DNA of 26,674 nucleotides from a virus. A program made the position numbers and the translations under genes. Location of the stretch: positions 1 to 26,674 of the IMG/VR virus record IMGVR_UViG_3300010155_000075; one strand, 5' to 3'. The notes under the pieces were generated by a model that worked only from the letters and a program-made list of their open reading frames with translations, was not told where the DNA came from and made no database searches. This document shows, in pieces, positions 879 to 26,674 of the stretch (position 1 is the stretch's first letter; each line of letters begins with the position of its first letter).

Positions 879-896
879 GGGATATTGATAATGTAA

Positions 897-1251: not shown

Positions 1252-1682
1252 TGAATAACAATGATATTGGCGGTAAAGAAGTGTTTGGTATTGTAACAGC
1301 AATTTTTATTGGTTTGCTTTTTATAATAGGGGTTATATGGGGAATGGTCGCTCTTTATAATGTATACAGCGTTTGGTCTGGTAAAAAAGCAGGTGAAGCA
1401 CAGTTAGCGGAAGCTTCTTATAATAGACAAATAGCCGTAAAAGAAGCAGAGGCTAAGTCAGCAGCTGCCACTGAACTTGCAAAAGCTGAGATAATTAGGG
1501 CAAAAGGAGTAGCAAAAGCAAACAAGATAATAGGTCAATCACTTAATAATAATGAATCATATCTTACTTACTTGTGGGTTCAATCTTTAGAGAGCAAACA
1601 AAATAAGGTAATCTATGTTCCAACAGAAGCAAATCTTCCAATACTGGAAGCATCTAGACTAAAAAAAGGAACTAAAAAATGA
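1251..1682 (+). CDS. Prohibitin/stomatin-like membrane protein lacking the SPFH core
   Basis: 143 residues. Residues 12-39 form a long hydrophobic stretch, one or two membrane passes. Residues 45-100 are an Ala/Glu/Lys-rich coiled coil (AEAKSAAATELAKAEIIRAK, then GVAKANKIIGQSL). The tail at 105-135 reads LWVQSLESKQNKVIYVPTEA and NLPIL, closely like the C-terminus of prohibitin and HflK/HflC, where the pattern is roughly 'w-x-x-l ... vvyvPt-g-lPi'. The globular SPFH/Band 7 domain that normally lies between membrane segment and coiled coil is absent. Similar short phage proteins are often annotated 'membrane protease subunit'. In bacteria HflKC cages surround the FtsH protease, so a phage version could join or disturb host SPFH cages; that is inference. 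It sits between a small membrane protein and an unknown gene with 1- and 4-base overlaps. Confidence 0.7.
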   Translation: MNNNDIGGKEVFGIVTAIFIGLLFIIGVIWGMVALYNVYSVWSGKKAGEAQLAEASYNRQIAVKEAEAKSAAATELAKAEIIRAKGVAKANKIIGQSLNNNESYLTYLWVQSLESKQNKVIYVPTEANLPILEASRLKKGTKK

Positions 1683-2086
1683 AAAAATTAGAAGAAATAC
1701 CAGAAGTACAAGTTTTAATTTCAGAGATCATAAATGAATCTCGTGAAAATGAAAAATTGGAAAATGCTATTAGATGTTTATTAAGGGAAATGCCAGATAA
1801 ATCACTTTTTAAAAAAAATTTTATACGAGCACTTCCGTTGACTACTTTTCAAGAAAGGTTAAGAAAAGATATAGTATATAAAGTCATTGACGATTGTTAT
1901 CAAGATGTTATGGTTAAAGAACCAAAGGATAAAAATCATGATTATATTAAAGAGTTAATTGATGATTTTAAATATATATTAACATTTGCCACTATTAAAA
2001 CAAAAAAACCTGAAGAAGATGATTTATGTACAATGTTAAATGCATTTAATAAAAAACTAACAAAAAAACTAAAGGATACGTTATGA
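1679..2086 (+). CDS. Hypothetical protein
   Basis: 135 residues, charged and mostly alpha-helical in appearance, with no signal or membrane segment. The ATG overlaps the upstream TGA (ATGA) and its own stop overlaps the next ATG in the same way, so it is embedded in the operon and probably translationally coupled. No motif I recognise. Its lysine-rich C-terminus (KKLTKKLKDTL) is the only notable feature. Confidence 0.65.
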   Translation: MKKLEEIPEVQVLISEIINESRENEKLENAIRCLLREMPDKSLFKKNFIRALPLTTFQERLRKDIVYKVIDDCYQDVMVKEPKDKNHDYIKELIDDFKYILTFATIKTKKPEEDDLCTMLNAFNKKLTKKLKDTL

Positions 2087-2655
2087 AAAAGTTAATTACT
2101 ATCGCTGCTATTTCAGTAGCTTCACTTTCAGCAACTTGCGCTATGGCAACCAGTAAAAGTTCAAATAATGGATATTTCAACCACTGGGGCATATCCGTTG
2201 ATGCTATTACCTTGAATGACAATATTCCATCACAACTCAATGACTTTGATATGGGGTATAAACTAGGTCTACATTATAACTACAACAAATATCTCTATTC
2301 CTCTGTTTCTGTATTGGTAGGAAAGCATGAATCCTCTGAGTTGAGTGCCTCTGTTGGCGTTCAGGGTTATGTTGGACGCTTTATGCCTTATGCAGATCTT
2401 AATATCAATAATATCAACAAATTTGGAGATAGCTTAAGCGGTGCATTAGGATATGACTTTGGATCAAGCTATGTGGTTAATAAGTTCATCATTCCATTTG
2501 TTGAGTTAGATGATGTTACTAGCAAGAATAAACAAGCAGTATGTGTGGGAATGCATTCTAGTATCATGAAGAATGTATCAATGAAAATTCAATATTCACG
2601 ATATATCCAAAATAACAATGACTCATTGGATATTGGCATGTCTTATTATTTCTAA
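2083..2655 (+). CDS. Outer-membrane beta-barrel protein with signal peptide
   Basis: 190 residues. The N-terminus is a classic Sec signal (MKK, a hydrophobic core ITIAAISVASLSA, then AMA before the cut near residue 22). The mature part of about 168 residues alternates polar and hydrophobic residues in short strands (YKLGLHYNYNKYLYSSVSVL, LSASVGVQGYVGRF, MKIQYSRYI). It ends in IGMSYYF, a terminal phenylalanine as recognised by the BAM insertion machinery. The size suits an eight-stranded barrel of the OmpA/OmpX/Ail kind. It implies a Gram-negative host. Phage-encoded outer-membrane proteins are known to block receptors or change the host surface (Lom-like proteins, superinfection exclusion); that role is inferred here. 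The first base triplets overlap the upstream stop. Confidence 0.75.
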   Translation: MKKLITIAAISVASLSATCAMATSKSSNNGYFNHWGISVDAITLNDNIPSQLNDFDMGYKLGLHYNYNKYLYSSVSVLVGKHESSELSASVGVQGYVGRFMPYADLNINNINKFGDSLSGALGYDFGSSYVVNKFIIPFVELDDVTSKNKQAVCVGMHSSIMKNVSMKIQYSRYIQNNNDSLDIGMSYYF

Positions 2656-2674
2656 TGGAATGAAATGATTAAAG

Positions 2675-2973
2675 ATGAAAAAGATTGTGATAGAACTTCC
2701 AATACCTTTGCCAACCTGGAACAGGATTTTAGAAATGAACCATTGGCAAAGGATGGAGGTACGACATTTGATTCACTTGTTTGTATTGAAATTATCTCCT
2801 ACAGAAAAAGACTCGCAGATGTGGACGGTATCTCCGCAAAAGCAGTTATTGATGGACTCGTTAAAGCAAAAATACTTGAAGATGATTCGACCAAGTTCGT
2901 CGAGGAAATCAGGTACAAACAAATTAAATCGACGCATGAGAAAACGATAATTATTATAAGAGAGTGTGAATGA
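2675..2973 (+). pseudogene. rusA: RusA-type Holliday junction resolvase, split by a -1 frameshift
   Basis: RusA homology lies in two frames. From ATG 2675 the first frame reads MKKIVIELPIPLPTWNRIL and then MNHWQRMEVRHLIHLF, a typical start of phage RusA proteins. The other frame carries RLADVDGISAKAVIDGLVKA followed by KILEDDSTKF and a beta-strand end, with the DxD and later DD acidic residues that bind metal in RusA. The change of frame falls near the A5 run at 2805-2809: adding one A gives ...PTEKRLADVD... and a 99-residue protein of normal size for short phage RusA. No canonical slippery heptamer is present. The choices are a real inactivating deletion, a homopolymer sequencing error, or inefficient slippage. 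RusA cuts four-way junctions, helping phage recombination or packaging. The downstream gene starts in ATGA overlap with the stop at 2971-2973. Confidence 0.75.
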
Positions 2974-3827
2974 GGGAAATTATGATAACAATAAATGGTA
3001 AAAATGTTAAATGTTCAAAGTTCAATGGCGGTGAATGTCATGTTAAAATACCGAAAGTAAGATTTGGTTGTAATATTGTTGAATCTTATCTTTATAGTTC
3101 TGATGATATTATGTTTCTTATGTTAACAATTGATGCTATGCGAAGGGTTAATCAATTTGCTGAGATACATTTAATTATTCCTTACTTTCCATATTCAAGA
3201 CAAGACAGAGTCTGCAATATTGGGGAAGCATTAAGCGTAAAGATAATGGCTGATTTAATTAACATGCTTAAATTAAATAGCGTTTTAATATATGATCCTC
3301 ATTCATATGTTGTTTATCCATTATTAAATAATTGCTTAATGAAACCAATGCCAGAAATAATAAAAAATAGCTTATTAAAAGATATAATTATAGAAAATAA
3401 TTTAATTTTAGTTTCACCCGACTCTGGGTCTGAGAAAAAAGTTAGAGATTTGGCAAATATTATATCGCATGACAATATTTTATATGCCAGCAAAGTAAGA
3501 AATACTAAAAATGGAGAAATAACAGAAACTAAAGTAAGTGGTGTGGAAAATGGTAAAAAATATATAATTGTTGATGATATATGTGATGGCGGAAGAACTT
3601 TTATTGAACTTGCAAAGATTATTAAAAAACAAGGTGCTTCAAAAGTTTATTTATACGTAACACACGGAATTTTTTCTAAAGGACTTGATGTTTTAAAAGA
3701 ATATATTGATAAAGTATATTGCTATTATACATTTTTAAATAATATTGATTCAGAATATTTAACTATTTTAAGAGAATCATATTCAGATTATATTAAAATA
3801 CAAGAGGGTTTAAAAAATGAATATTAA
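2970..3827 (+). CDS. PRPP-synthetase-like enzyme, probable ADP-ribose pyrophosphate synthetase (Adps) of NARP1
   Basis: 285 residues. Conserved parts of ribose-phosphate pyrophosphokinase are present: PYFPYSRQDR at 71-80 (ATP site), DPHS at about 110-113 in place of the usual DLHA, SPDSGSEKKVR, a lysine in ASKVRN, and the PRPP loop IIVDDICDGGRTF at 199-211. The family transfers pyrophosphate from ATP to ribose 5-phosphate. In phages, versions beside a NAMPT-like gene have been shown to act instead on ADP-ribose, making ADPR-pyrophosphate, the first step of NARP1. This gene overlaps the NAMPT-like gene by 11 bases, so that role is favoured, though substrate cannot be read from the sequence. 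ATG 2970 overlaps the rusA stop; ATG 2982, after GAGGGA, is an equally good start. Confidence 0.85.
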   Translation: MREIMITINGKNVKCSKFNGGECHVKIPKVRFGCNIVESYLYSSDDIMFLMLTIDAMRRVNQFAEIHLIIPYFPYSRQDRVCNIGEALSVKIMADLINMLKLNSVLIYDPHSYVVYPLLNNCLMKPMPEIIKNSLLKDIIIENNLILVSPDSGSEKKVRDLANIISHDNILYASKVRNTKNGEITETKVSGVENGKKYIIVDDICDGGRTFIELAKIIKKQGASKVYLYVTHGIFSKGLDVLKEYIDKVYCYYTFLNNIDSEYLTILRESYSDYIKIQEGLKNEY

Positions 3828-5334
3828 CCCATTAACATCAATAGATTTCTACAAAGCAGGCCATATAAGACAATATCCAGAAGGAACAACAGAGCTATAT
3901 TCAAACTTTACTCCAAGAAGTTGTGCGTTATCTAATATTAATTATGAATTTTTTGATGGCAAAGTTGTTTTTTTTGGTATTCAGTATTTTATTAAAAGTT
4001 TTTTAATAGATTCCTGGAAAAAGGAATTCTTTTTTAAAGATAAAATCAAAGTAATAGAAAAATACAAAAGAAGAATGGATTGTGCTCTAGGCAACAACAT
4101 TGTTAGTACAGATCATATTGAAAGTCTGCATGATTTGGGTTACTTGCCTTTAAAGATAAAAGCGCTTCCTGAAGGATCAAGGGTTCCTATAGGAGTTCCT
4201 GTTTTAACTATTGTAAATACACATAAAGATTTTTTTTGGTTAACTAATTATATTGAAACAGTTATGTCATGTTTTTTATGGAAAGCAATAACTTCGGCAA
4301 CAACTGCTTTTCACTATAAAAAATTATTAACAGCATATGCTATTAATACTGGATCGCCTATTGATTTTGTTAATTTTCAAGCGCATGATTTTTCTTTTAG
4401 AGGAATGTCTGGATTACAGGATGCTTCATTAAGTGGGGCGGCACATCTCACTTCATTTTATGGAACAGATACAGTTCCTGCCATTGATTTATTAGAAGAT
4501 TATTATCAGGCAAACGTAAAAAATAATGTTATTGGGTGCTCTGTTCCTGCTACAGAACATTCTGTAATGTGCATGGGAGAAAAAGAAAATGAAATAAATA
4601 CATTTAAACACCTTATAAATAATATTTATCCTGAAGGTATAGTATCGATTGTTTCAGATACATGGGATTTCTGGAAGGTAATAAATGAATATATGAATAT
4701 CCTTAAAGAAAATATAATGTCAAGAAATGGAAAAGTTGTTATTAGGCCAGATAGTGGTGATCCAGTAAAAATAATATGTGGTGATAGTTATTCAGATAAA
4801 AATAGTTATGAATACAAGGGTGCTATTGAGTGTTTGTGGGATATATTTGGAGGAACTTTTACAGAAAATGGCTATAAAGTATTAGATTCTCATATAGGTT
4901 TAATTTATGGAGATGCTATTACGTTTGATAAAGCTAATTTAATTTTACTTGAACTTGAACAAAAAGGGTTTGCATCTTCAAATATTGTATTTGGCATTGG
5001 ATCTTATACTTATCAATATGTAACTCGTGATACTTATGGTTTTGCTATGAAAACAACAAGTGGTATTGTCAATGGAGAAAGAAGAGAAATATTTAAAGAT
5101 CCAAAAACAGATAATGGTGTAAAAAAATCTGCAAAAGGATTGCTTAGAGTTGAAAAAGAGAATGGCACGTTTGTTTTATATGATCAACAAACCGAAGATC
5201 AAGAAGAAAATGGAGAATTGAGATGTATTTTTCTTAATGGTCAAATACCATTTTACGATGATATAGATAGCATAAGAAATAATTTAGATAGGGGATTGAT
5301 TGAAGAATGTACAAATTTAGCAGAAATTCTTTAA
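3817..5334 (+). CDS. nadV: Nicotinamide phosphoribosyltransferase-like enzyme, probable NAD+-forming Namat of NARP1
   Basis: 505 residues, full length for the NAMPT/NadV family. Visible family signatures are DFYKAGHIRQYP at 10-21 (human DSYKVTHYKQYP), GTDTVP near 216-221, PATEHS with the phospho-histidine position H248, VSDTWDFW, IRPDSGDP with D312, and TRD at 403-405. All catalytic positions I can align to human NAMPT (D219, H247, D279, D313, R392) are kept, so the enzyme looks active. NAMPT joins nicotinamide to PRPP giving NMN. In the phage NARP1 pathway the homologue joins nicotinamide to ADPR-pyrophosphate giving NAD+ directly. The overlapping Adps-like gene and the absence of an NMN adenylyltransferase gene in this window favour NARP1; classical NMN salvage using host enzymes remains possible. 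Confidence 0.9.
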   Translation: MNINPLTSIDFYKAGHIRQYPEGTTELYSNFTPRSCALSNINYEFFDGKVVFFGIQYFIKSFLIDSWKKEFFFKDKIKVIEKYKRRMDCALGNNIVSTDHIESLHDLGYLPLKIKALPEGSRVPIGVPVLTIVNTHKDFFWLTNYIETVMSCFLWKAITSATTAFHYKKLLTAYAINTGSPIDFVNFQAHDFSFRGMSGLQDASLSGAAHLTSFYGTDTVPAIDLLEDYYQANVKNNVIGCSVPATEHSVMCMGEKENEINTFKHLINNIYPEGIVSIVSDTWDFWKVINEYMNILKENIMSRNGKVVIRPDSGDPVKIICGDSYSDKNSYEYKGAIECLWDIFGGTFTENGYKVLDSHIGLIYGDAITFDKANLILLELEQKGFASSNIVFGIGSYTYQYVTRDTYGFAMKTTSGIVNGERREIFKDPKTDNGVKKSAKGLLRVEKENGTFVLYDQQTEDQEENGELRCIFLNGQIPFYDDIDSIRNNLDRGLIEECTNLAEIL

Positions 5335-5741
5335 AGAATTTAGAAGGAATACACCCTAATTTGGTTAATGTATGTGTTCATGCTTTGAGCATGCAAAAGA
5401 TTGACTTTGGTGTTATTAAGAACAGTTTTAGAACAGTTGAACAACAAAAAGAAAATATGCGAAAAGGATTGTCTAAAACAATGGATAGCCTTCATCTGCC
5501 ACAATCTGATGGATATAGCCATGCGGTAGATCTTTTTTGGTATAAGGATGGCATTGATGTGTTTAAGCTCGAGAGAAGCCCTAATATTAGCTCTAAACAG
5601 ATTGATCATGGATGGAACACATTGACGTTCTGCATGTATCAAGCAGCTATAAAATATAAAATTCCATTAGGATGGGGTGGATTCTGGAAAGGAGCATGGG
5701 ATAAGCCACATTATTATATATTGAGAGATAGAGAAAAATGA
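5307..5741 (+). CDS. Endolysin, M15 family peptidoglycan peptidase (L-alanyl-D-glutamate peptidase type)
   Basis: 144 residues, the usual size for a single-domain M15 (VanY-like) phage endolysin. It opens with YKFSRNSLKNLEGIHPNLV, then FGVIKNSFRTVEQQ, the stretch before the metal site. Zinc ligands are likely H63 (SLH), D75 (SHAVDL) and H135 (DKPHYY), with D132 as the catalytic acid. There is no signal peptide, so it would need a holin to reach the wall. It overlaps the end of the NAMPT-like gene by 28 bases and so belongs to the plus-strand operon, while the holin candidate lies at 6053-6451 on the minus strand. It cleaves the peptide part of Gram-negative type murein, most likely between L-Ala and D-Glu, though D-Ala-D-Ala cleavage cannot be excluded. 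Confidence 0.85.
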   Translation: MYKFSRNSLKNLEGIHPNLVNVCVHALSMQKIDFGVIKNSFRTVEQQKENMRKGLSKTMDSLHLPQSDGYSHAVDLFWYKDGIDVFKLERSPNISSKQIDHGWNTLTFCMYQAAIKYKIPLGWGGFWKGAWDKPHYYILRDREK

Positions 5742-5800
5742 TATTGGCTGCTTATCTTGGTGAAGTAGTGTTTTTAACCATGGTATTTTTATTACAATAA
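5738..5800 (+). CDS. Possible 20-residue hydrophobic peptide
   Basis: The ATG overlaps the endolysin stop (ATGA), and GAGAGATAGAG lies just upstream. The product, MILAAYLGEVVFLTMVFLLQ, is almost wholly hydrophobic and about the length of one membrane span. Its place right after the endolysin would suit a small lysis-related membrane peptide. An ORF this short can arise by chance, so this is tentative. Confidence 0.3.
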   Translation: MILAAYLGEVVFLTMVFLLQ

Positions 5801-5816
5801 ATAGGATAGGATAAAT

Positions 5817-6023
5817 ATGATCATTTCAATTTTAATGATAATTATTTCTACTACTTTTATATCATTATCATACTCTTTGTATTGTGAGTATAAAAGAAAC
5901 AGCAAAAAAGAAATTATTGGAAAAGCTAAATATGTGATAAAAAACTTTTATCACATATTTATTATTGATATTTTACTATTAGCTGCAATAATAATTTTAA
6001 TTATAAAAAGTTATAAGTTATAA
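5817..6023 (+). CDS. Small two-pass membrane protein
   Basis: 68 residues, preceded by AGGATAGG shortly before the ATG. Two hydrophobic segments, about residues 2-22 and 46-64, are separated by a basic stretch (CEYKRNSKKEIIGKAKYVIK), the pattern of a helical hairpin with the charged loop probably inside. It is the last gene of the plus-strand operon, next to the endolysin, and could be a holin, antiholin or spanin-like partner; no family is recognised. The middle of the gene contains a perfect 16-bp inverted repeat (5927-5961), so its mRNA would fold strongly, which is unusual for coding sequence. Confidence 0.5.
   Translation: MIISILMIIISTTFISLSYSLYCEYKRNSKKEIIGKAKYVIKNFYHIFIIDILLLAAIIILIIKSYKL
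5927..5961 (+). repeat. Perfect 16-bp inverted repeat with 3-nt loop
   Basis: The left arm TAAATATGTGATAAAA (5927-5942) is followed by AAC and then the exact reverse complement TTTTATCACATATTTA (5946-5961). The hairpin lies inside a small membrane protein gene, about 60 bp before the point where the plus- and minus-strand operons converge. Possible roles are a transcription stop or RNase III site at the operon end, or an operator; no long U-tract follows directly. Confidence 0.85.
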
Positions 6024-6052
6024 TTGTAATTTATTAATTAACAATATCATTT

Positions 6053-6451
6053 TTATTTTTTGGAATTCTCTTTTTTGAACGCACCAACAATTCCCTGAAT
6101 GGTTGGTTTAAGTGCTGAAATGCCCCAGATTGTCCCTGTTATGCTCCCATATATTTTAATGTACCAAGGGGGCATAGACTGGATTGCAATCGTGAAGTAA
6201 TTGCGAACACTCTCTGGTGAAATTGCAGCAACTAGAAAAGGAAGAGTAAACATAATAAAAGATATTCTTTTAACCCAACGATCTGAATTTTCAATCACCG
6301 CCATTTGCCACTCGGCGTTGTGATCCTCTTTTGATTGAGCTAATCGCGTTCTTTGTTCTGCAGATGCTTTTTTGGTCTCTTGCTGGGCTTTTTTAGTCTC
6401 AAACCAGCCCTTTGCAAGAGAACCTATTGCTCCGACTATTGCACCTATCAC
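6053..6451 (-). CDS. Putative holin, 3TM (gene-transfer-agent type) family
   Basis: 132 residues from GTG 6451, with AGGAGAT just upstream. The layout is MIGAIVGAIGSLAKGWFETK, then a charged helical stretch (about 17-60), then hydrophobic segments about 62-79 and 86-118 around SMPPWYIKIYGSITG. This matches phage proteins assigned to the 3TM holin family PF11351, which typically show 'G-W-E', a charged middle and 'MP-WY' before the last segment. A holin makes inner-membrane holes that release the endolysin. It is the last gene of the late operon, a common place for lysis genes. The start overlaps the stop of a 50-residue membrane protein gene (GTGA). Family assignment is by memory of pattern; the lysis role is inferred. 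Confidence 0.55.
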   Translation of the reverse strand: MIGAIVGAIGSLAKGWFETKKAQQETKKASAEQRTRLAQSKEDHNAEWQMAVIENSDRWVKRISFIMFTLPFLVAAISPESVRNYFTIAIQSMPPWYIKIYGSITGTIWGISALKPTIQGIVGAFKKENSKK

Positions 6452-6600
6452 TTATATCTCCTATCTGAAAACGTAAAAAACAAAATAATCGATAAGTCAA
6501 TGCTTCCAAAAACAAATTCAAAAATATCATTATGCATCCTACCAAAAATACAAAGAATAATGCTGTTAAAAATGATCAAAATAAAACATATAATCAACAT
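6448..6600 (-). CDS. 50-residue two-pass membrane protein
   Basis: ATG at 6598-6600, stop TGA at 6448-6450 overlapping the GTG of the holin candidate in a 4-base GTGA junction. The product has two hydrophobic stretches, residues 2-20 (LIICFILIIFNSIILCIFG) and 33-45, separated by a short polar turn, and ends SDRRYK. It fills what would otherwise be a 160-bp gap in a compact operon, and the overlap strongly supports it. Small two-span proteins before a holin are often antiholins or class II holins; no family match is claimed. Confidence 0.55.
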   Translation of the reverse strand: MLIICFILIIFNSIILCIFGRMHNDIFEFVFGSIDLSIILFFTFSDRRYK

Positions 6601-6610
6601 TATTTTTCCA

Positions 6611-7129
6611 TTATTTGTTATCATTCATTTCACCATGATTTATAAAATTTTCATAAGTCCTTAGCAATGCCTTTCCAACCCCAAAAATTGATATAGAACA
6701 CCAGATAATTCCAAAAATTTGTATCATAAAAATTTCTGAATAAGCTGGATTTTTAGACATTGAATCTACGAATAGCCAGAGAATTGAAAAAATAAAAGAC
6801 AAGGTTAAACATAAAAACTCTAACTTTGTTCTAATGCTTTTTTCTTGTATCGCATAAATATAGTATATAACGGTAGATAATTCAGCAAAAATAAATATTG
6901 TTACCCATACCGGATCATTTTGCATAAGATAATGTCTGAAAAAAACGTATGGTATTGACATGCCAAAAGCTACTGTGCTATAACTAATAACACAGACCAT
7001 ACCAACAATAAAAGTTATTATTGTATTGTCACCTTTCTTTTTCATAAGGAAAAGTCCTATTGGTATCATCATCTCAATGAGTCTTAATATTGACTCTTGA
7101 AGATTGAAAAGTTTACGAATTCTATACAT
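6611..7129 (-). CDS. Multi-pass membrane protein of unknown function
   Basis: About 172 residues from ATG 7129. An in-frame GTG at 7174 would overlap the upstream gene by 40 bases, so the internal ATG is preferred although its ribosome site (AGAGGGA) is rather distant. About five hydrophobic segments are visible near residues 13-28, 36-60, 72-92, 103-121 and 131-152, with short charged loops and a polar tail ending MNDNK. No family recognised. Position between virion and lysis genes might suggest an inner-membrane role late in infection. The ATG spacing leaves the exact start uncertain. Confidence 0.55.
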   Translation of the reverse strand: MYRIRKLFNLQESILRLIEMMIPIGLFLMKKKGDNTIITFIVGMVCVISYSTVAFGMSIPYVFFRHYLMQNDPVWVTIFIFAELSTVIYYIYAIQEKSIRTKLEFLCLTLSFIFSILWLFVDSMSKNPAYSEIFMIQIFGIIWCSISIFGVGKALLRTYENFINHGEMNDNK

Positions 7130-7134
7130 ATTAA

Positions 7135-7368
7135 TTAGATAAAAATCCCTCTTTGCTTCTGTATTGAAAAGCACTCAAGAGTATCTGTGTAAATTAAATC
7201 TACGTTAAGTTGATATATAACACCATCCATCACCTGAGGGAAAGCATTATTTATAACAAAGTCATTTTCAGAATCCGGTATTAAAACTGCAATTGCTTCT
7301 TTACCTTCACCCTCAAAAATATCTTTTTCAACTGAATTTTCAAAGACTATATAAGATGAATCATACAT
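7135..7368 (-). CDS. Hypothetical protein, 77 residues
   Basis: Started at ATG 7368 because AGGGGG lies about nine bases upstream. A TTG at 7389 would overlap the previous gene. The product begins MYDSSYIVFENSVEKDIFEG and has beta-strand-like stretches (AIAVLIP, VIYQLNVDLIYT). It directly follows the spike-base-like gene, only 2 bases away, so it may be a small virion or assembly protein. No domain recognised. Confidence 0.55.
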   Translation of the reverse strand: MYDSSYIVFENSVEKDIFEGEGKEAIAVLIPDSENDFVINNAFPQVMDGVIYQLNVDLIYTDTLECFSIQKQRGIFI

Positions 7369-7370
7369 CT

Positions 7371-7673
7371 TTAATAACCCCCTATCCAACTCATGTTGCT
7401 TGCAGTAGTAGATCTAGATATTCCTCTCACTGTAATGGGACCTTTCACTATTTTTGATGCAACTAATGGCAAAACAGCGCCTGTAGCAGCTCCTGAAATA
7501 AATTGAGTAACACCAGCATCATTTTCATAAACAATATCGCCACCAGTTCCAACAACAATATATTTTGACAATCCCTCTGGAAAATCAGTACCTATTATTA
7601 CTAAATCAGATAATCCACCATAGATTCCAAATCTCATACTTGGTTTACCAAGATTTGCTATTTCTTGAGCCAT
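7371..7673 (-). CDS. Spike-base-like virion protein
   Basis: 100 residues, preceded by AAGGAT. The sequence has YIVVGTGGDIVYENDAGVTQ, then GAVLPLVASKIVKGPITVRG and a C-terminal TTASNMSWIGGY. This resembles the 'spike base' family (RCAP_Rcc01079 type) of gene transfer agents and phages, whose members read 'lyVGtgGdv.v ... g.vlPv.v..V.atgTtAtni.aly'. Such proteins form a small beta-sandwich in tail or spike structures. It lies directly after the large terminase and near the tail fibre. Homology is by pattern and moderately sure; the place in the virion is inferred. Confidence 0.55.
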   Translation of the reverse strand: MAQEIANLGKPSMRFGIYGGLSDLVIIGTDFPEGLSKYIVVGTGGDIVYENDAGVTQFISGAATGAVLPLVASKIVKGPITVRGISRSTTASNMSWIGGY

Positions 7674-7683
7674 AAAAATATCC

Positions 7684-9129
7684 TTAATTTTTGTTATAAT
7701 ATACTATACCATAATCTTTAATATTGATTAAACTATTATCAATAGCAATCGTTAATGTTTGAAACGCATCAACCCCATGTGATGCCCAATCATGCCTTGG
7801 TTTATTTTTATAATCGCCCATTTTTTTATCATATTCTTTGCTATAGTTGCTCAAGCACGTAATCAATCTCTTGCAACACTTGTCAATTGTAGTGCTATAG
7901 AGCATATTTCTCATATTTTGAACTTCCATTAATTTATTTGAAGGTTTTTCGCATGCTTTAACATCAAATCCAGCCAATCTAACCTCATTCAACAAATTGA
8001 CTGTCGTATTATTTGCGTTTTTAGCATCATGTGGTGCAAAATTCTGCAATAATATAAGATTATTTTTTGTACAAAACTCTTTTGCATCATTTAGAAACTT
8101 AACATAAGGCGTATATCTTCCAGAAATAGAATGGATTATGTTGGGCTTTTTATAGTCAACTAGCTGAAATAGAATAATAACAGTTTCGTCATTTTGACCA
8201 AGATCAGATGAAGTATAAACCGGTTCTCCAGGAATAATGCAGTTCTCTCTTATCCTATTATCATCGTACATTTGATTAATGGCTTTAGCAAAATACATGG
8301 ATTCTTCATTCAAAGATACTACATTATAGTATTCTTGTTGAATCTTAAACTCAGCCATGCCATCTCGTCTATCTGCATCAACTTTTTCCTCAGAGATATA
8401 ACGCTTTCCTTCAGAATCAACCAGATTTTCAACGGACTTTATTCTTGTAAACCACTCAGGATTATCTTTAACTTCCTGCATATAGTTATAAGCATGGTTC
8501 ATTCCATTAAATGTTGTTTGCAAAATTATCCAACCATCATTATTACGAACTGCAGGCATCATTGCCTCAAGCATACCAGGATCTTCATAAGCAAACTCAC
8601 TAAAAACCATACCTCTAAAATTTGTTCCCCTATATTTATCAACATCTCTGTCACTTCCTAAAATATGTATTACAGAACCATTCCATAAGCAAATTGTTAA
8701 ATCTACAGAGTTTGGTTTTCCTGAAATAATAAACTTTGGTATCATATCTTTAAAGGACATCAAAGAATCATCTTCTAATGTTATTCCTCCCTTCCAAATA
8801 ACCTTTTCTCCTTGGGCTCTAGTTGGGTAAACAATACCATATATTCCAGGCTTTCTTATCGAACATTCTATAATTATTTGCCAAGATTCAACCTCTTTTC
8901 CAGCACGCCTTGGCATAACATCAAATACACGCTTTATTTTCCCATTAACAATAAGATCTCTTACTTTTTGCTGATACGGTCTTAACTTAACAATTGGAAC
9001 ATCGACACCATCCAATCCATTTCTGCATATTGTTTTATCATCAAGCTTTTCAATAGTTATCTTTGAATCATAAATATAATTATATTCATCTTCTATTTTT
9101 TTAATTTTTGTTTTTAATGAGCTTAACAT
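7684..9129 (-). CDS. terL: Terminase large subunit
   Basis: About 481 residues from ATG 9129; an earlier start at 9156 would overlap the fibre gene. The ATPase half has RPYQQKVRDL, a Walker A variant MPRRAGKE at 72-79, IVYPTRAQGEKVIW, and a Walker B with catalytic glutamate (MVFSEFAYE, S177-E178), then an LQTTFNG coupling motif. The nuclease half shows SSDLGQNDETV, NFAPHDAKN and a late HDWASHGVDAF, giving the acidic residues of an RNase H-like fold. It cuts and pumps phage DNA into the prohead through the portal. It follows the tail fibre gene, as gene 19 follows 17 in T7, whereas the small-terminase candidate is about 15 kb upstream at the operon start. Confidence 0.9.
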   Translation of the reverse strand: MLSSLKTKIKKIEDEYNYIYDSKITIEKLDDKTICRNGLDGVDVPIVKLRPYQQKVRDLIVNGKIKRVFDVMPRRAGKEVESWQIIIECSIRKPGIYGIVYPTRAQGEKVIWKGGITLEDDSLMSFKDMIPKFIISGKPNSVDLTICLWNGSVIHILGSDRDVDKYRGTNFRGMVFSEFAYEDPGMLEAMMPAVRNNDGWIILQTTFNGMNHAYNYMQEVKDNPEWFTRIKSVENLVDSEGKRYISEEKVDADRRDGMAEFKIQQEYYNVVSLNEESMYFAKAINQMYDDNRIRENCIIPGEPVYTSSDLGQNDETVIILFQLVDYKKPNIIHSISGRYTPYVKFLNDAKEFCTKNNLILLQNFAPHDAKNANNTTVNLLNEVRLAGFDVKACEKPSNKLMEVQNMRNMLYSTTIDKCCKRLITCLSNYSKEYDKKMGDYKNKPRHDWASHGVDAFQTLTIAIDNSLINIKDYGIVYYNKN

Positions 9130-9134
9130 ATATG

Positions 9135-10430
9135 TTATCCGAAAGAATCTTCCCAACCTTTAGTATTAATTCTTAAGTTGGTTCCAGGAGTTGTAGAAAC
9201 AGAGTCTATCTGAATGGTTCTACTTGTATTTGTTTTAACATTAACTTCTGATGAAGAAATTGAAGCTATAATTCCGCCAGAATCAAATGATAGAATATTG
9301 CCAACTTCATTAGTATCAAAACCAACTGTTTGAGATGTGGTTGATGAAGATCTAACATTATAACATGGCTCTTGACCTGCTGAAAAAGACAATGAAATAT
9401 TCAAGTTTGCCAAAACACTCAAATCCGGAGGAACAGACAATACAGCACTTGTTGGTGATTCAGAATTTAAATCAAATTTCTGAGTATCCCATAAAAATTT
9501 ATCTTTAAATTGACTAAATTTAATTATATCTGATGTTGCATCTGTAAGAACAGAACCGATCCTATAAAAATCAACATAATTTGATGCTGAAACAAGTAAA
9601 TTTTCTGCAGTAAAACTTGTATCAAATCCATAATCAGTAGAAGCTGGTGAAATTGATTTATATATAGCAAATACATGATACCAAGTATTTGGTGTTAATG
9701 ATAAACCAGATCCTAAACCACCAAAACCAGATCCTTCAGCCCAAGGTTGATCTATTATTTTTGAAAAAATAGAATTTCTCTCAAAAACTGTATTAGAGAA
9801 TAGCTTTTTTGAAACTCCAATTGATATATCAATTGTATCATCTGGACTTGATAAATTATTACTTAAATTAAATCCATCTTTATAGCTTATAGCGGTAGAT
9901 ATAACAGGAGCTTGAGTTAAATCAAGTGCAACAACACTTCCCCCTGATTTTGCCCAAAATTGATTATCACCTAAAACGGGTACAATGCTTTGCTGATTAT
10001 TTGGCAATATAGCATTAATCGCATATTTAATTGAATTAAAATCAAGATCAGTTTTATTTTGTTGTATTAATGTTACTTCTCTTTCTAATGAATTATCTAA
10101 ATTTGCGCCATTAAATGTAGTGGGATTTGAAAATTCACTAGTTAAACTAGCTGGAACAGATCTTATTAATGTAACTGTAGATAGATTTGCTGGTATTTTA
10201 CCAGGTTGAAATACAACATTTCCTCCTGCCGTCACCCCAACGCCAGTTAACGTATAATCAGTAGTCAAAACTTTTATATCATTAGAAGGATTTGGGTTTT
10301 GTCCATTTAATGTAACATAAACATCTATATCACCTTCTGCAAATATTTTAAATGTATATGCAAATGTATCTTGAACTCCATTACCTACGTATTGATTTCT
10401 TGTAATCTGTTCTGGTAAATTAATAGCCAT
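9135..10430 (-). CDS. Tail fibre/spike protein with T7-type virion-anchoring N-terminus
   Basis: 431 residues, preceded by GGGAGATAGAG. The first 130 or so residues (QITRNQYVGNGVQDTFAYTF, then DIDVYVTLNGQ, VVFQPGKIPANLSTVTLIRS) are the widespread podovirus fibre N-terminal domain of T7 gp17 type, which attaches the fibre to the tail. A helical stretch FNGANLDNSLEREVTLIQQ ends that domain. The remaining 300 residues are Ser/Thr/Asn-rich and beta-like, probably the receptor-binding part; no enzymatic motif is visible. It would set host range. It is rather short for a fibre, so a second fibre or adaptor may exist elsewhere; the 100-residue spike-base-like gene two genes downstream may add to the structure. 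Confidence 0.85.
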   Translation of the reverse strand: MAINLPEQITRNQYVGNGVQDTFAYTFKIFAEGDIDVYVTLNGQNPNPSNDIKVLTTDYTLTGVGVTAGGNVVFQPGKIPANLSTVTLIRSVPASLTSEFSNPTTFNGANLDNSLEREVTLIQQNKTDLDFNSIKYAINAILPNNQQSIVPVLGDNQFWAKSGGSVVALDLTQAPVISTAISYKDGFNLSNNLSSPDDTIDISIGVSKKLFSNTVFERNSIFSKIIDQPWAEGSGFGGLGSGLSLTPNTWYHVFAIYKSISPASTDYGFDTSFTAENLLVSASNYVDFYRIGSVLTDATSDIIKFSQFKDKFLWDTQKFDLNSESPTSAVLSVPPDLSVLANLNISLSFSAGQEPCYNVRSSSTTSQTVGFDTNEVGNILSFDSGGIIASISSSEVNVKTNTSRTIQIDSVSTTPGTNLRINTKGWEDSFG

Positions 10431-10432
10431 CT

Positions 10433-12847
10433 CTATCTCCCAAATATAATATGTTGTCCATGAGGAACATAAACTTTATCACCCATTGCTTTTTTTAAAT
10501 ACACTTGAATCCAAGGAACGGTAGATATTGGCAGTGTATATTGTAATGACCTCTTTAAATTTGATTTTGCCTTTTTACTATTAAGCTCTAATGCCGCTCC
10601 TGATGCAGACATTAATGAGCTGGCTAGACGTGCCGATGGTGAGCCCCCCAACATATCTGCTAATAAGTCAGAGTTTTGAGAGTTAGGGTCTAATCCCATT
10701 GCCAACACACCAAATGGAGATGCTAATAACTGTGCTCTTTCTTCATTTGTCATATCTAAGATAGACGGTGTTGATAAACCTTTTGATAAATTAAAAAAGT
10801 AAGTTGACATATAGGCTAATGGCATCATATAACCAAACAGCTGAGTCATGAATAGGCTTTTCTTAACAAATCCATCTCCTGCATTTTTCCATCCATCTGC
10901 CAGAGATCTGTTTACAAAAGATACAGCAAATCCCTTAAACTGCATTATAGTTCTCATTATTTCCCCGGTAACAGATCCAGGTTTAGTTCCTTGTAATAAT
11001 ATTGCATTTTCATAAGCACCTGGAGATAAAACAGCATTATTTGATGAAACGTCAAATAAGGTATGTATTTTTCGATAGAGTTGATTTTTTATATCAGCCA
11101 ATAATGAATCATCTTCTCCTAAAGAAGATCTTATTTTTTTATAATCTTCATCGCTTATTTTATCAACAATATCTAATGTTAAATGCTTATCTTTTATTTT
11201 TTTCCTTAAAATGTCCCATTCTGTAGAATTTATATTAAAATTATCCAATTGTGATTTTAATTTTTGATCTAAGTTTTTAAAAGAAATATCTTTGTTCTTA
11301 TAAAAATTCCTAGATATGGTAGACATTATTCCTAATCTATTTCCATTATCCCATGCTTGCATTGCCACATATTGATAATATTTGCTCGTTATCTTAGAGC
11401 TCACATTTCCTAAATTTTGAGCTTCTATAAACTTTCCTATATAGCCCATATGATGACGCATATCCAAATGCATCATCTCACCAAGCTGCTTAAGCTCTGG
11501 AGAAGTAAATTGAGATAATAATGCAGTAATCTGGTTGGAAAACGATTGGCCATAAGACACGCCAAATCGCGTTGCATAACTTGCAGCAATATTGGTGTCT
11601 GTTAAAGATTGGAGTGCAACTCCGCCTAACCTGGCCATTGAGGTTACTGCTCTGATGTTTGAGAATATTGTGGCAGCTGTCATGTTTACAGCAATCTTAG
11701 ATTCTCCGCTAACCCATTTAAAGATATTATTAGTATTTTTATGCCATATAGATCCTCTTGTTATTCCTTCATTTTCTTGAAATCTTTTTAATGCTTCATA
11801 CATTTGCTCTGGAGCAGGTCCCATGATTTCAGACATGCCAATCTTATTGGAGCTTCCATGTATGTCCGACATTAATGCACTAAAGATGTCTCCAGTACCA
11901 TACTGTTCATTATATTCAGACCAGTTTTTGAAATCCTTCCAGTGAAAAAACATTCTTCTTCTTTTTTTCAAGGATTCTATATCTTTCAATATACCTGTTT
12001 TCTGAAATATATCAGTTTTTCCTTCTGTAATATTTATGTATATATTGCTTAATATTTTATCAACCTTAACATGGTCTATATCACCATTTGGTAAAAAGGC
12101 ATCTACTTTTTTAAAGGTTTCATCTAGATCTAATTTATCTTTAATAAAATCAATCCATTGTTTCTTTGCATTGGCTTTAAAATTAGACTGCCTTCTTATA
12201 GATCTGAGGGGCGCTTTTGAAAATTGTACCATCCTATCTTTAAGGCTAGCTGGATTGATTAATCTTGATCTGTCATGTATAGACCTCAGCCATCTATCAC
12301 TCTGAATTTCATCAATGGATAATGCATCAGATAATATCATTTTAGAGTTTCTGGTTATAATGTAGTCATTCATTGCTTTTCCAATTCTATTAGCAACTTC
12401 TGACATATTGTTACCATCAACTGCCTCAGCAATTTCTAATCTATTATTTTTATCTTGTAAGAACTTTACTTCATCTTTTGTAATAGGATTGAAAAAGCTA
12501 TCCATCAAGCTATTTGTGTTTGATAATTGAGCAGATTCAACGTTGTTGCCAATGTTTCTGGATCCTCTTGCCAGAAAATCTCTAGTAGTGAATTTATTGT
12601 CAGCTATAGATTTTGATATTTTACTAAATTTAGCGACACTGTTAGACATTATTATAGCATTGCTGCCAATTTCGTTTAATGATGAATTGTAGGTAGCATT
12701 CTTTGCATTACTTATTGCTGCCTTTCCAGAAAGACCGCTTTTTTTTGCATTTTCTAATGTATCTTTAACGTATTTTTCAATATCATCAATAGACAATTGA
12801 GCTAATTGTTTAATTGCATTTAATACACATTTTCTAAATTTTGCCAT
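10433..12847 (-). CDS. Internal virion (ejected) protein, large, probable gp16 counterpart
   Basis: About 804 residues from ATG 12847, whose A-G-G-A site lies about nine bases before; the upstream stop shares one base (TAATG). It is long, mostly helical and basic. The C-terminal part has short hydrophobic segments (FGYMMPLAYMSTYFF near 690, LASPFGVLAMGL). No transglycosylase motif is apparent. In T7-like phages the gene just before the tail fibre encodes the largest core protein, which is ejected into the cell wall and inner membrane to carry DNA in; position and size fit that. Homology cannot be shown from the residues alone. Confidence 0.65.
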   Translation of the reverse strand: MAKFRKCVLNAIKQLAQLSIDDIEKYVKDTLENAKKSGLSGKAAISNAKNATYNSSLNEIGSNAIIMSNSVAKFSKISKSIADNKFTTRDFLARGSRNIGNNVESAQLSNTNSLMDSFFNPITKDEVKFLQDKNNRLEIAEAVDGNNMSEVANRIGKAMNDYIITRNSKMILSDALSIDEIQSDRWLRSIHDRSRLINPASLKDRMVQFSKAPLRSIRRQSNFKANAKKQWIDFIKDKLDLDETFKKVDAFLPNGDIDHVKVDKILSNIYINITEGKTDIFQKTGILKDIESLKKRRRMFFHWKDFKNWSEYNEQYGTGDIFSALMSDIHGSSNKIGMSEIMGPAPEQMYEALKRFQENEGITRGSIWHKNTNNIFKWVSGESKIAVNMTAATIFSNIRAVTSMARLGGVALQSLTDTNIAASYATRFGVSYGQSFSNQITALLSQFTSPELKQLGEMMHLDMRHHMGYIGKFIEAQNLGNVSSKITSKYYQYVAMQAWDNGNRLGIMSTISRNFYKNKDISFKNLDQKLKSQLDNFNINSTEWDILRKKIKDKHLTLDIVDKISDEDYKKIRSSLGEDDSLLADIKNQLYRKIHTLFDVSSNNAVLSPGAYENAILLQGTKPGSVTGEIMRTIMQFKGFAVSFVNRSLADGWKNAGDGFVKKSLFMTQLFGYMMPLAYMSTYFFNLSKGLSTPSILDMTNEERAQLLASPFGVLAMGLDPNSQNSDLLADMLGGSPSARLASSLMSASGAALELNSKKAKSNLKRSLQYTLPISTVPWIQVYLKKAMGDKVYVPHGQHIIFGR

Positions 12848-24795: not shown

Positions 24796-24804
24796 AATAA
24801 CGTC

Positions 24805-25323
24805 CTATTTATTCTTAATCTTCTCTTCAAGATTAGCGACAGATTCAGCTAATTTATTGAGTTCTTCTTGGTTAATGATGGAGGCATATTTAGAAATAGA
24901 CTCTATAACCAAGTTCATCACTTTTGTACTAATTCTACCTTGTGCATTATCTTTCATGACGGCGACAATCTTTTGTCTTGGAGAGTAGTCATCGGATGAC
25001 ATTATTTCAAGTGTTTCTTCTGAGTACAGAGGATACTTTCCATCAATTTTTTCTTGTCTATTCAAACTTAGTGCTAGACAAGTGACGGCATTTTTGTCAT
25101 CCTTGTCTTGCATTTCTTTTATTCTTCTCAGGGTATCTTCGCGGTATTTAGCATCTCCTTTTTTAAGCGCCTCAGAAAAAGCTGGGTCTCTTTTTATCAA
25201 GGAATAGAATGTATCAGCTGAAATATTTAGCGAAAAGAATATATGCTTATGATTTAATCCTAGGGCGGATTGTTCATAAACAAAATCCAACATTTTTTTG
25301 TCTGCGATGATTAATTTAGCCAT
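24805..25323 (-). CDS. Probable terminase small subunit
   Basis: About 172 residues from ATG 25323; a GTG at 25338 is also possible and neither has a clear ribosome site. The N-terminal part has a helix-turn-helix pattern (LGLNHKHIFFSLNISADTFY, SLIKRDPAFSEALKKGDAKY) close to the 'G.t...iA..lGis..Tly.Wkk..peF..al..gk' of small terminases. The rest is helical with a C-terminal coiled coil (INQEELNKLAESVANLEEKI). It is the first protein gene of the late operon, just after tRNA-Pro. The small subunit binds phage DNA and guides the large subunit. A plain transcription regulator with the same helix-turn-helix is the alternative. Confidence 0.65.
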   Translation of the reverse strand: MAKLIIADKKMLDFVYEQSALGLNHKHIFFSLNISADTFYSLIKRDPAFSEALKKGDAKYREDTLRRIKEMQDKDDKNAVTCLALSLNRQEKIDGKYPLYSEETLEIMSSDDYSPRQKIVAVMKDNAQGRISTKVMNLVIESISKYASIINQEELNKLAESVANLEEKIKNK

Positions 25324-25375
25324 TTTTTGAACATACACGAATGTTTTTGAATAATCAAGTTTTTTTTAGAAGAGA

Positions 25376-25452
25376 TGGTCTGGATAGATGGATTTGAACC
25401 ACCGACTTCCTGGTTCCAAACCAGGCACACTACCGGGCTGCGCTATATCCAG
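25376..25452 (-). tRNA. tRNA-Pro (anticodon UGG) with encoded CCA
   Basis: The minus strand folds as a full 77-nt cloverleaf. Acceptor CTGGATA pairs with TATCCAG, the D-arm is GCGC/GTGT, the anticodon stem CCTGG/CCAGG encloses the loop TTTGGAA (anticodon TGG), the variable loop is AAGTC, and the T-arm is GGTGG-TTCAAAT-CCATC. Discriminator A and CCA are encoded (25376-25379). It would read proline codons, mainly CCA, a frequent choice in this AT-rich genome. It lies 53 bp upstream of the small-terminase candidate on the same strand. Confidence 0.95.
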
Positions 25453-25494
25453 ATATAGTAAAATTAGCTGATACTGTTTGTAATTGAACCAAAG

Positions 25495-25567
25495 CTATAT
25501 TAGTTAACATATGTTACCCGATGCACTCTGGCTACGGAGCTCTACCACTGATCTACAGATCAACTAA
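25495..25567 (-). other. tRNA-like or degenerate tRNA element
   Basis: On the minus strand TTAGTT pairs with AACTAA at the two ends, and the inner sequence GATCAGTGGTAGAG is very like a tRNA D-arm (usual GCTCAGTGGTAGAG). No standard anticodon arm or T-arm can be drawn, and the 12-bp palindrome TAACATATGTTA (25505-25516) fills the place of the T-arm. A T-arm-like TTTGGTTCAATTACAAA follows further down at 25472-25494. It may be a decayed tRNA or a transcript of another kind. A TATAAT box sits just upstream. Confidence 0.35.
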
Positions 25568-25570
25568 TAT

Positions 25571-25599
25571 ATTATAACAAATTAATATACTATTGTACA
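25571..25599 (-). promoter_or_regulatory. Candidate promoter of the late operon and tRNA
   Basis: Minus strand: TGTACA (25599-25594, four of six bases), 17-bp spacer, perfect TATAAT (25576-25571). Transcription would start near 25564, at the tRNA-like element, and read into tRNA-Pro and the head genes. Confidence 0.45.
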
Positions 25600-25628
25600 T
25601 TGAAATTAAAATAACATAATGATATTCT
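25600..25628 (+). promoter_or_regulatory. Candidate rightward promoter
   Basis: TTGAAA (25600-25605, five of six), 17-bp spacer, TATTCT (25623-25628, four of six). A transcript would begin near 25635 and meet the terminator at 25683-25714 after about 80 nt. Confidence 0.4.
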
Positions 25629-25634
25629 ATATTA

Positions 25635-25714
25635 GTTGGTTACCATCCCTCGTCCCATTAATACCCTGCCAACAAATATGAAGGCCCTCAGTTTCTCTGG
25701 GGGTCTTTTTTTTT
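25635..25714 (+). ncRNA. Candidate 80-nt small RNA
   Basis: Between the rightward promoter and the strong terminator there is no ORF. The sequence begins AGTTGG-like bases that can pair with CCAAC at 25669-25673 (GTTGG 25635-25639), giving a first stem around a C-rich loop, then a short linker, then the terminator hairpin. This could be a phage small RNA or an attenuator leader for the RNA ligase gene 100 bp further on. It is inferred only from promoter, fold and terminator. Confidence 0.35.
25683..25714 (+). terminator. Rho-independent terminator
   Basis: Stem GGCCCTCAG (25683-25691), loop TTTCT, stem CTGGGGGTC (25697-25705), with nine base pairs including two G-U, followed by nine T residues (25706-25714). 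It is the clearest terminator in the window. It works on the plus strand, where no protein gene lies upstream, so it must end a small RNA or form part of a leader before the RNA ligase gene. Confidence 0.9.
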
Positions 25715-25811
25715 GTTATTTATATGTTAGAGCATGGTATTGTAGGTATAATTTTCGTGGGTTCGATGCATGAAGGATACAATATCATTATTATAAACAA
25801 AAGAGAATGTT
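25715..25811 (+). other. Leader region of the RNA ligase gene
   Basis: This stretch between the terminator and the ligase start contains a TATAAT at 25747-25752 without a good -35 box. It also holds tRNA-like fragments (TTAGAGCATGG at 25727-25737 and GGTTCGATGC at 25760-25769) that do not form a cloverleaf. AAGAGA lies just before the ligase ATG. A promoter at 25747 is possible but weak. Confidence 0.3.
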
Positions 25812-26513
25812 ATGGAATACCTTACTGATTTCCCAAAGATTCAATGTCCTTTCATTAGAGAAACTTTTTCTGTTAATAAGGAGCAACATAAAAGAAACGG
25901 ACGCCAATTACAGTTACGCAAACCTGAAGTTTATCTTGTGGTTAACAAAATCAATCCTGGTTATGAGTGGGTATTTGATGATCCTGATACGATTGCGGTT
26001 GAGAAGCTTGACGGCACTAATGTCAAGATTAAAACAGAAGAGGGTCGATTAGTGGCGTTGCAGAACAGGAAGAACGTTATTAATCCTTTACTGATTATGA
26101 AGGGGAAGAGTTTTATCATAGAGGGTGTATTTCAGGCAATACAGAAGGGTTACGTTGAAGATAACTTAGAACAGGCAGGCGAAATCATTGGTCCTAAATT
26201 ACAGGGCAATCCTTATAATATAGCCAATCACATTTGGTATCCCTTTTTAAAGTCTGTTAAACATTTAAAATACCGATCTTTTCATGAGCACGATGTTAAT
26301 TTTAAAAATCTTAGTGATTGGTTTGAGCATTACTTAAAAAGTTTATTTATGGCAAAACAGGTTGGACATGATAAAGCGGGGTTTGCAGAGGGTGTGATAT
26401 TTTACAATTTAAGGCGTAAAGCTGAAAACCAGACTTACATGGCAAAATTACGTCGAGACATGTTTGAATGGTATTACAGTGATATGATAGAGATTTATGA
26501 TTATCCTAAATAA
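25812..26513 (+). CDS. RNA ligase (nucleotidyltransferase superfamily)
   Basis: 233 residues. Motif I is VEKLDGTNVK with K65 as the lysine that takes AMP. ALQNRKN follows at about 83-89, then a motif III-like FIIEGVF and GEIIGPKLQGNPYN, motif IV AEGVIFYN near 193-200, and a motif V-like MAKLRRDMF near 212-220. This order is that of ATP-dependent RNA ligases of the Rnl2 type and phage 'RNA ligase domain' proteins. The short length means only the adenylation core is present, without a large C-terminal domain. T4 RNA ligase 1 repairs host tRNA cut by anticodon nucleases; the neighbouring tRNA and tRNA-like genes make tRNA repair the favoured role here, by inference. Its codon use looks less AT-rich than the virion genes. 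A leader with a strong terminator lies upstream. Confidence 0.8.
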   Translation: MEYLTDFPKIQCPFIRETFSVNKEQHKRNGRQLQLRKPEVYLVVNKINPGYEWVFDDPDTIAVEKLDGTNVKIKTEEGRLVALQNRKNVINPLLIMKGKSFIIEGVFQAIQKGYVEDNLEQAGEIIGPKLQGNPYNIANHIWYPFLKSVKHLKYRSFHEHDVNFKNLSDWFEHYLKSLFMAKQVGHDKAGFAEGVIFYNLRRKAENQTYMAKLRRDMFEWYYSDMIEIYDYPK

Positions 26514-26515
26514 AA

Positions 26516-26576
26516 TGGTCGCCCAGCCGGGAATCTAACCTGGAAAATGTCTCAAATAACTTTCTGACACAAGGCG
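26516..26576 (-). other. 61-nt tRNA-like gene with encoded CCA
   Basis: The minus strand gives acceptor CGCCTTG with CTGGGCG (one T-T mismatch, one G-U), T-arm CCAGG-TTAGATT-CCCGG (one mismatch), and an encoded ACCA end. Between acceptor and T-arm there is only one hairpin, TGTC...GACA with a 14-nt loop, instead of D- and anticodon arms. It is too short for a normal tRNA. It is either a decayed tRNA or a minimal tRNA-like RNA. A promoter lies directly upstream at the right distance. Confidence 0.5.
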
Positions 26577-26584
26577 ATAATATA

Positions 26585-26613
26585 ATTATACAAAATATCA
26601 ATCAATTTTTAAA
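26585..26613 (-). promoter_or_regulatory. Candidate promoter of the tRNA-like gene
   Basis: Minus strand: TTTAAA (26613-26608, four of six), 17-bp spacer, perfect TATAAT (26590-26585). The expected start near 26578 is two bases before the 5' end of the tRNA-like sequence (26576), which supports both calls. Confidence 0.45.
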
Positions 26614-26635
26614 TAACTTTTTGTTACTTTTTTTC

Positions 26636-26674
26636 TTAACATGCACCATTGTCTAAATATTTTTTCACACTCAT
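26636..26674 (-). CDS. Possible 3' end of a minus-strand gene (cut by the window edge)
   Basis: The minus-strand frame entering at 26674 is open for 12 codons (MSVKKYLDNGAC) and stops at TAA 26636-26638. The first codon at the edge is ATG, so this may also be a chance 12-codon ORF. Too little is visible to judge. Confidence 0.2.
   Translation of the reverse strand: MSVKKYLDNGAC

Follow-up and report, generated by a model that had tools for sequence, protein, structure and literature searches.

The window analysed here, a stretch of 26,674 bases that is the whole virus record, carries on its minus strand at positions 26516–26576 a degenerate tRNA gene with proline-type ends. This remnant is probably a tRNA pseudogene derived from an imported cassette of tRNA and RNA ligase genes, its parent most likely a proline tRNA. 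The remnant is real; on the simplest reading it is no novel type of RNA, just a tRNA gene that has broken in the usual way.

Read from 26576 to 26516, the 61-nt remnant is composed of CGCCTTG, a middle of 26 nt, CCAGG-TTAGATT-CCCGG, CTGGGCG, the discriminator A and CCA. The acceptor strands CGCCTTG/CTGGGCG form six of seven pairs, with U6–U67 failing, and the T-arm forms four of five, with A51–C63 failing. The T-loop TTAGATT need not be damage, since it recurs in the annotated tRNA-Met of Aeromonas phage Aes012. Among the parts of a tRNA described by Rfam RF00005, the acceptor and T-arm with CCA are thus present, and the D-arm and an anticodon arm with U33 are not recognisable. ARAGORN called no tRNA at the remnant, and the covariance search recommended in the preliminary description came out empty, RF00005 reporting no tRNA match there at E values up to 10 and the gathering score not being reached. 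The one Rfam match obtained with the short stretch, to a plastid intron, was taken as chance.

The best supported part is the tRNA 3′ half (26516–26543, minus strand), comprising the T-arm, the acceptor 3′ strand, A73 and CCA. A plain descriptor with its stringency set to the level of the remnant (CCA, T-arm with at least four of five pairs, T-loop, acceptor with at least six of seven) matches two places in the contig, an intact tRNA-Pro and the remnant, compared with 0.14 per shuffled contig. A 3′-half score combining weight matrix and pairing, devised with the candidate already known, was trained on 39 of the 42 tRNAs called by ARAGORN in ligase-related loci L002, L016, L019, L020 and L026 (only tRNAs with a terminal CCA were kept, which removed three), a set that excludes both the remnant and the tRNA-Pro of the window. 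The remnant scores 38.6 and the intact tRNA-Pro 37.2, and nothing elsewhere in the contig exceeds 16.6; none of 1000 dinucleotide-shuffled contigs reached 38.6, their maximum being 30.9. With the CCA columns removed, the remnant scores 31.9 and the maximum in 300 shuffled contigs is 31.4. Its score is above those of four of the 39 training tRNAs. Because this score lies so far beyond the shuffled contigs, the 3′ half is tRNA-derived, and the earlier claim of a recognisable acceptor and T-arm with an encoded CCA holds; over the whole length, derivation from a tRNA is marginal.

A C1–G72 pair with A73 is the signature of bacterial proline tRNAs. It is present in the tRNA-Pro of the contig and in one of the 39 CCA-ending tRNAs of the related loci, itself a tRNA-Pro, and judging by these residues the parent of the remnant was most likely a proline tRNA.

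Upstream of the 3′ half the tRNA character fades. A 5′ acceptor partner matching CTGGGCG equally well occurs in a fraction of 0.046 of shuffles and 0.070 of random contig stretches. The 26-nt middle (26544–26569, minus strand) replaces tRNA positions 8–48, contains a possible TGTC/GACA hairpin and gave no convincing match among a set of 43 tRNAs; alignment of the whole remnant to these 43 (26.5, compared with a shuffle 95% level of 25.0 and a maximum of 31.0) yielded no usable parent. Within the middle lies CAGAAAGTTATTTGA, a near-copy of CAAAAAGTTATTTAA at a distance of 57 nt on the upstream side (uncorrected P between 0.006 and 0.017), which hints at, without proving, the possibility that the middle was acquired by local copying. 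The fold of the remnant does not stand out from chance (z −1.07; equalled by 29 of 200 shuffles), and the tRNA-like fold with the middle hairpin is calculated at −11.7 kcal/mol compared with −14.5 for the best fold, so that the hairpin is unsupported. Of the proposal that one hairpin had replaced the D- and anticodon arms, the loss of recognisable arms stands and the hairpin is not supported. Likewise, the coordinates of the proposed 61-nt RNA were reproduced, and its length and the description 'one arm besides the T-arm' are backed only modestly, because the figures for the 5′ partner, the promoter and the fold are weak.

In front of the remnant is a sigma-70-like promoter sequence, TTTAAA-17-TATAAT (26585–26613, minus strand). 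The TATAAT ends at 26585, eight bases before the remnant 5′ end at 26576, and the −35 box, matching four of six consensus positions, lies 17 bp further upstream, exactly as first described. A promoter of such strength and spacing ending 4–12 nt before the 5′ end was found in 1.35% of 2000 local shuffles (P 0.0135), and one anywhere in the 98 nt upstream at a frequency of 0.079. The surrounding 1,875-nt region (24800–26674) holds 12 promoter-like sites, compared with 8.4 ± 3.1 expected, and two terminator-like sites, both on the plus strand. Taken with the 5′ acceptor partner, the promoter placement makes a 61-nt gene with its own promoter likely, not certain. The further argument that a well-placed promoter implies function does not follow, because a once-working single tRNA gene would leave the same TATAAT on decaying, and a second, probably degenerate unit nearby has a nearly identical arrangement. 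A role of the remnant as terminator of the ligase gene was rejected, there being no terminator-like site at that position.

About 1 kb from the remnant and on the same strand is an intact tRNA-Pro (TGG) with encoded CCA (25376–25452; ARAGORN and Rfam). Just upstream of it, at 25469–25561 (minus strand), is the second unit, probably a degenerate tRNA without CCA, seen as an alignment to RF00005 below the cut-off (13.1 bits, E 3.3, gathering score 29), the unrelated FasX model scoring slightly better. In this alignment the acceptor, D-arm and T-arm are matched, the D-arm reading being our own, and 41 nt instead of 18 occupy the anticodon region; the fold is unremarkable (z −1.37). A sigma-70-like promoter, TGTACA-17-TATAAT with TG before the −10 box (25571–25599, minus strand), stands in front of this unit and the tRNA-Pro, its TATAAT ending at 25571. 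The idea that the two degenerate units are halves of a split tRNA was set aside, as their acceptor strands, compared by eye, do not fit each other.

Two further observations concern this region. Positions 25565–25597, over the promoter of the second unit, are 91% identical to positions 1501–1533 of locus L013 (on the L002 contig) across 33 nt (E 2.4e-5); the shared stretch is AT-rich and perhaps represents a common promoter sequence or chance. On the plus strand, 25600–25716 could encode a small RNA, with a promoter-like TTGAAA-17-TATTCT followed by about 80 nt in which a TTGG/CCAA stem precedes a strong intrinsic terminator made of a 12-pair stem and a T run; its fold has a z-score of −4.2, one of 200 shuffles being as good, and it lies upstream of the ligase gene, diverging from the tRNA promoter.

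The adjoining gene (25812–26513, plus strand) encodes an RLIG1-like RNA ligase with the motif KLDGTNV, as indicated by PHROG, Pfam and the structure model. Matches to PHROG RNA ligases have E values of 3.8e-7 and 1.1e-6, and those to Pfam fall below the curated cut-offs (RLIG1, 23.9 bits with a cut-off of 25; RNA_ligase, 20.9 with a cut-off of 27). Thirteen of 15 aligned sequences (the ligase of the window and 14 homologues) match Pfam RNA_ligase, and a profile of the 15 finds T4 RNA ligase 2 in the PDB (E 0.0015). The structure model (pLDDT 91.7) is most similar to Yasminevirus RLIG1 (PDB 9c6l; E 3.8e-7, TM 0.50), followed by other RNA ligases. Ligase gene and remnant converge: the stop codon ends at 26513 and the remnant, with its CCA, at 26516, which leaves two bases between them; the RNA that had been described as antisense to the 3′ end of the ligase would thus be antisense to the untranslated tail only.

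The contig belongs to a short-genome podovirus infecting bacteria. PHROG matches were obtained for nine of ten window proteins scanned, identifying portal (head–tail adaptor), capsid, endolysin, RNA ligase, PRPP synthetase, nicotinamide phosphoribosyltransferase and one protein of unknown function, with weak matches of two proteins to terminase. The portal is 21–27% identical to the portals of 57 phage records, including Pelagibacter phage Hodr, Methylophilales phage MEP301 and Vibrio phages of 31–35 kb. One identical copy of the capsid protein is present on a 4.3-kb contig that does not reach the region of the remnant. Elsewhere in the window, the PRPP synthetase and nicotinamide phosphoribosyltransferase genes adjoin as an NAD salvage pair (2970–5334, plus strand), and the contig begins with a reading frame (1–422) that we refer to as pentapeptide-repeat-like, built of about 27 copies of a 15-base tandem repeat. 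In the records of Pelagibacter phages Hodr and Baldr (L029 and L030; OQ414635.1 and OQ414636.1), the locus tags carry each other's name.

Ligase relatives were found in 15 viral loci. In the flanks retrieved, ARAGORN called nine tRNAs in L014 and 22 in L016; L019, L020 and L026 have a single one apiece, and the other ten loci have none. The ligase thus lies inside tRNA arrays in two of 15 loci (L014 and L016), and in three (L014, L016 and L020) the distance from ligase to tRNA is no more than about 100 nt; in all three the nearby tRNAs are co-directional with the ligase, unlike the convergent remnant. The arrays around the ligase are very dense (L016, 1–6555; L002, a longer stretch of the L014 contig, 1–12690). 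The descriptor matches 19 places in L002 and 25 places in L016; all are at least 72 nt long, apart from one sub-match of 50 nt that falls within a tRNA-Gln of L016. They include tRNA-like genes missed by ARAGORN at 450–523, 981–1055 and 5666–5743 of L016 and at 2157–2246, 3213–3299 and 8451–8529 of L002. The descriptor also matches four places in a repeat of L018, taken as chance, and a 57-nt tRNA-like stretch in L021 (8419–8475) that scores below 26 and looks like chance. The 3′-half score scan covered loci L003, L004, L009, L015 and L017–L036, leaving aside L002, L014 and L016.

On another ligase-relative contig, L025, positions 2330–2470 hold tRNA pieces out of order, at which ARAGORN called no tRNA: a T-arm (ATGGG-TTCGAAT-CCCAT) comes first and is directly followed by TGCTC-GTAA-GAGTA, a D-arm and a TTG anticodon arm, with an outer C8/G7 stem enclosing the whole. 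The element has a fold z-score of −3.17 and a sub-threshold Rfam tRNA match over 2382–2469 (25.5 bits, E 0.0017, cut-off 29). Circular permutation of a tRNA-Gln would be one explanation, replacement of the T-arm in a tRNA of normal order another.

No tRNA was found in the eight annotated portal-related records retrieved of the 57 matching, where no 3′-half score reached 26, nor in 23 portal-related IMG/VR stretches among the matches listed (205 kb), where none reached 28. For this reason the island of tRNA genes and ligase looks imported.

No second copy of the remnant was found in the viral, phage, plasmid and bacterial collections, from which its near relatives may be missing. A DNA search for the locus in four ligase-relative records did not find it; two of them matched, over the ligase and its near flanks plus one 33-nt AT-rich piece. 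As to the refutation named in the preliminary description, relatives with an ordinary tRNA at this place, L014 and L016 show the ligase surrounded by normal tRNAs. The remnant pattern has no second instance in viral contigs, and four viral matches to a looser pattern, in DNA where ARAGORN calls no tRNA, are probably fortuitous. Similarity searches of phages and plasmids gave nothing usable, the E values being 0.7 to 10 among the matches listed (30 of 40 phage and 20 of 77 plasmid records); the sole annotated tRNA under these is a tRNA-Met found in five records of Aeromonas phages (32 nt at 84% identity, E 3). The sequence GGTTNRANTCCCGGCTGGGCGA, with or without CCA, has no exact match in the bacterial and archaeal genome collection, from which the host may be absent.

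Several lines of evidence argue for a pseudogene. The 3′ half is beyond chance and on par with the intact tRNA-Pro, with proline-type ends; a second, probably degenerate tRNA, albeit below the cut-off, is 1 kb away on the same strand; the ligase sits inside tRNA arrays in two of the 15 ligase loci and close to a tRNA in three, and the tRNA pieces of L025 are disordered. The stem mismatches, the failure of ARAGORN and Rfam to detect a tRNA and the missing fold signal point to decay, as does the length of the array matches in L002 and L016, none below 72 nt apart from the one L016 sub-match, and in the accessible text tRNA pseudogenes are reported for T4-like phages (PMC1524935). Against this, the promoter is near consensus and well placed, and CCA, A73, the T-loop and most acceptor pairs exceed what old neutral decay would leave. 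Moreover, no relative appears to carry an intact parent at the place of the remnant, the middle seems traceable to no tRNA, and the predicted gene converges with the ligase while the tRNAs of L014, L016 and L020 run with it.

As a pseudogene, the remnant would have arisen as follows. The source of the small island of tRNA genes and the RNA ligase gene was probably a tRNA-rich phage. While the tRNA gene still worked, its own promoter would have driven transcription from a start at, or adjacent to, the 5′ end of the tRNA; the product would have been trimmed and may have been used in translation or have replaced host tRNAs cut by a defence nuclease; the ligase, to judge from T4 and RLIG1-type ligases, would reseal cut tRNAs. 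With an intact tRNA-Pro (TGG) nearby, a second proline tRNA may have been dispensable, and an internal deletion with replacement of the middle could have removed the D- and anticodon arms, the loss of which is seen. A present-day transcript, if any, would be short, unstable and of no use in decoding.

It is unlikely that the remnant is a working, expressed, anticodon-less tRNA-like RNA serving as a decoy, whether for a tRNA-targeting nuclease, for the CCA enzyme, for RNase P or for the ligase next to it. Such an RNA would retain the acceptor and T-arm read by enzymes and shed everything else, and it is in keeping with the promoter at the 5′ end, the retained CCA and T-arm, the adjoining RNA ligase and the second unit, which is likewise altered at the anticodon region and has its own promoter-like site. 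However, the patterns and searches used brought up no second instance in any of the viral, phage, plasmid or bacterial collections, the acceptor and T-stem each have a mismatch, a fold signal is lacking, and anticodon nucleases act at the anticodon, which is gone from the remnant. The roles as decoy, guide or packaging RNA proposed in the preliminary description thus found no positive sign, there being no second copy and a middle without clear structure or parent. The T4 'species 1/2' stable RNAs are non-tRNA products of its tRNA cluster; the literature search returned nothing on them. An RNA decoy against tRNA-cutting defences was not met in that search either, 'decoy' denoting spacers and DNA decoys in two articles that use the word.

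Quite unlikely is the reading that only the tRNA 3′ end is real, as a recombination leftover or an old attP, with the 5′ strand and hairpin arising by chance. The weak significance of the 5′ acceptor partner (P 0.046–0.070) and the integrase or XerD-like recombinase annotated in two of the eight portal-related records fit this, but an attP copy must restore a working tRNA end, and the T-stem carries a mismatch. Nor did the PHROG or Pfam scans of 15 window proteins show an integrase; the looser-pattern matches look like chance, and identity to a host tRNA 3′ end, as expected of an attP, was not seen in the bacterial and archaeal collection, again with the reservation that the host may be absent from it. 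It is very improbable that the remnant and the second unit, the one shortened and the other enlarged at the anticodon region, are two promoter-driven tRNA-like RNAs kept as acceptor/T-arm baits for host enzymes acting on tRNA, with the RLIG1-like ligase repairing the real tRNAs. Hardly credible is a minus-strand promoter producing an antisense RNA into the ligase gene that regulates the ligase, the tRNA remnant being incidental: the promoter-like site is there and both terminator-like sites of 24800–26674 are on the plus strand, but promoter-like sites are expected by chance in AT-rich DNA, as the count given above illustrates.

The pseudogene reading has its closest counterpart in T4-like phages, for which the accessible text describes both tRNA pseudogenes and tRNA genes preceded by early promoters (PMC1524935). 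Common to both are a degenerate tRNA, intact tRNA genes in the same phage genome and promoters before tRNA genes; different are the short-genome podovirus, the position beside an RNA ligase and, relative to the pseudogenes as described in that text, a remnant that can be strongly recognised in its 3′ half only. According to the accessible part of one report (PMC11494293), tRNAs cleaved in the anticodon loop have their halves joined by ligases of the RLIG1 family, and in T4 a kinase and a ligase repair tRNA-Lys. The window shares with the T4 Pnk and RNA ligase 1 system and with RLIG1-type 5′–3′ ligases an RNA ligase accompanied by tRNA genes, its model being closest to a viral RLIG1; it differs in that no kinase or phosphatase is found among the 15 window proteins scanned (PHROGs, Pfam) and in that the remnant has no anticodon loop to cut or join. 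Phage tRNAs have been proposed or shown to evade tRNA-targeting defences (PMC10264068, PMC11555353), and such phage-borne tRNA genes suggest a possible reason for the island; the tRNAs described there replace or resist, and the accessible text of the two articles contains neither 'decoy' nor 'truncated'.

If expressed and kept, the remnant would be an RNA decoy against tRNA-cutting defences. On the simplest reading the cassette is decaying, with one tRNA intact, one clearly and one probably broken, and the ligase intact. The window would then show such a cassette in the course of its decay, in a lineage in which the relatives examined are without tRNAs, and provide a small data point on the gain and loss of tRNA genes by phages.
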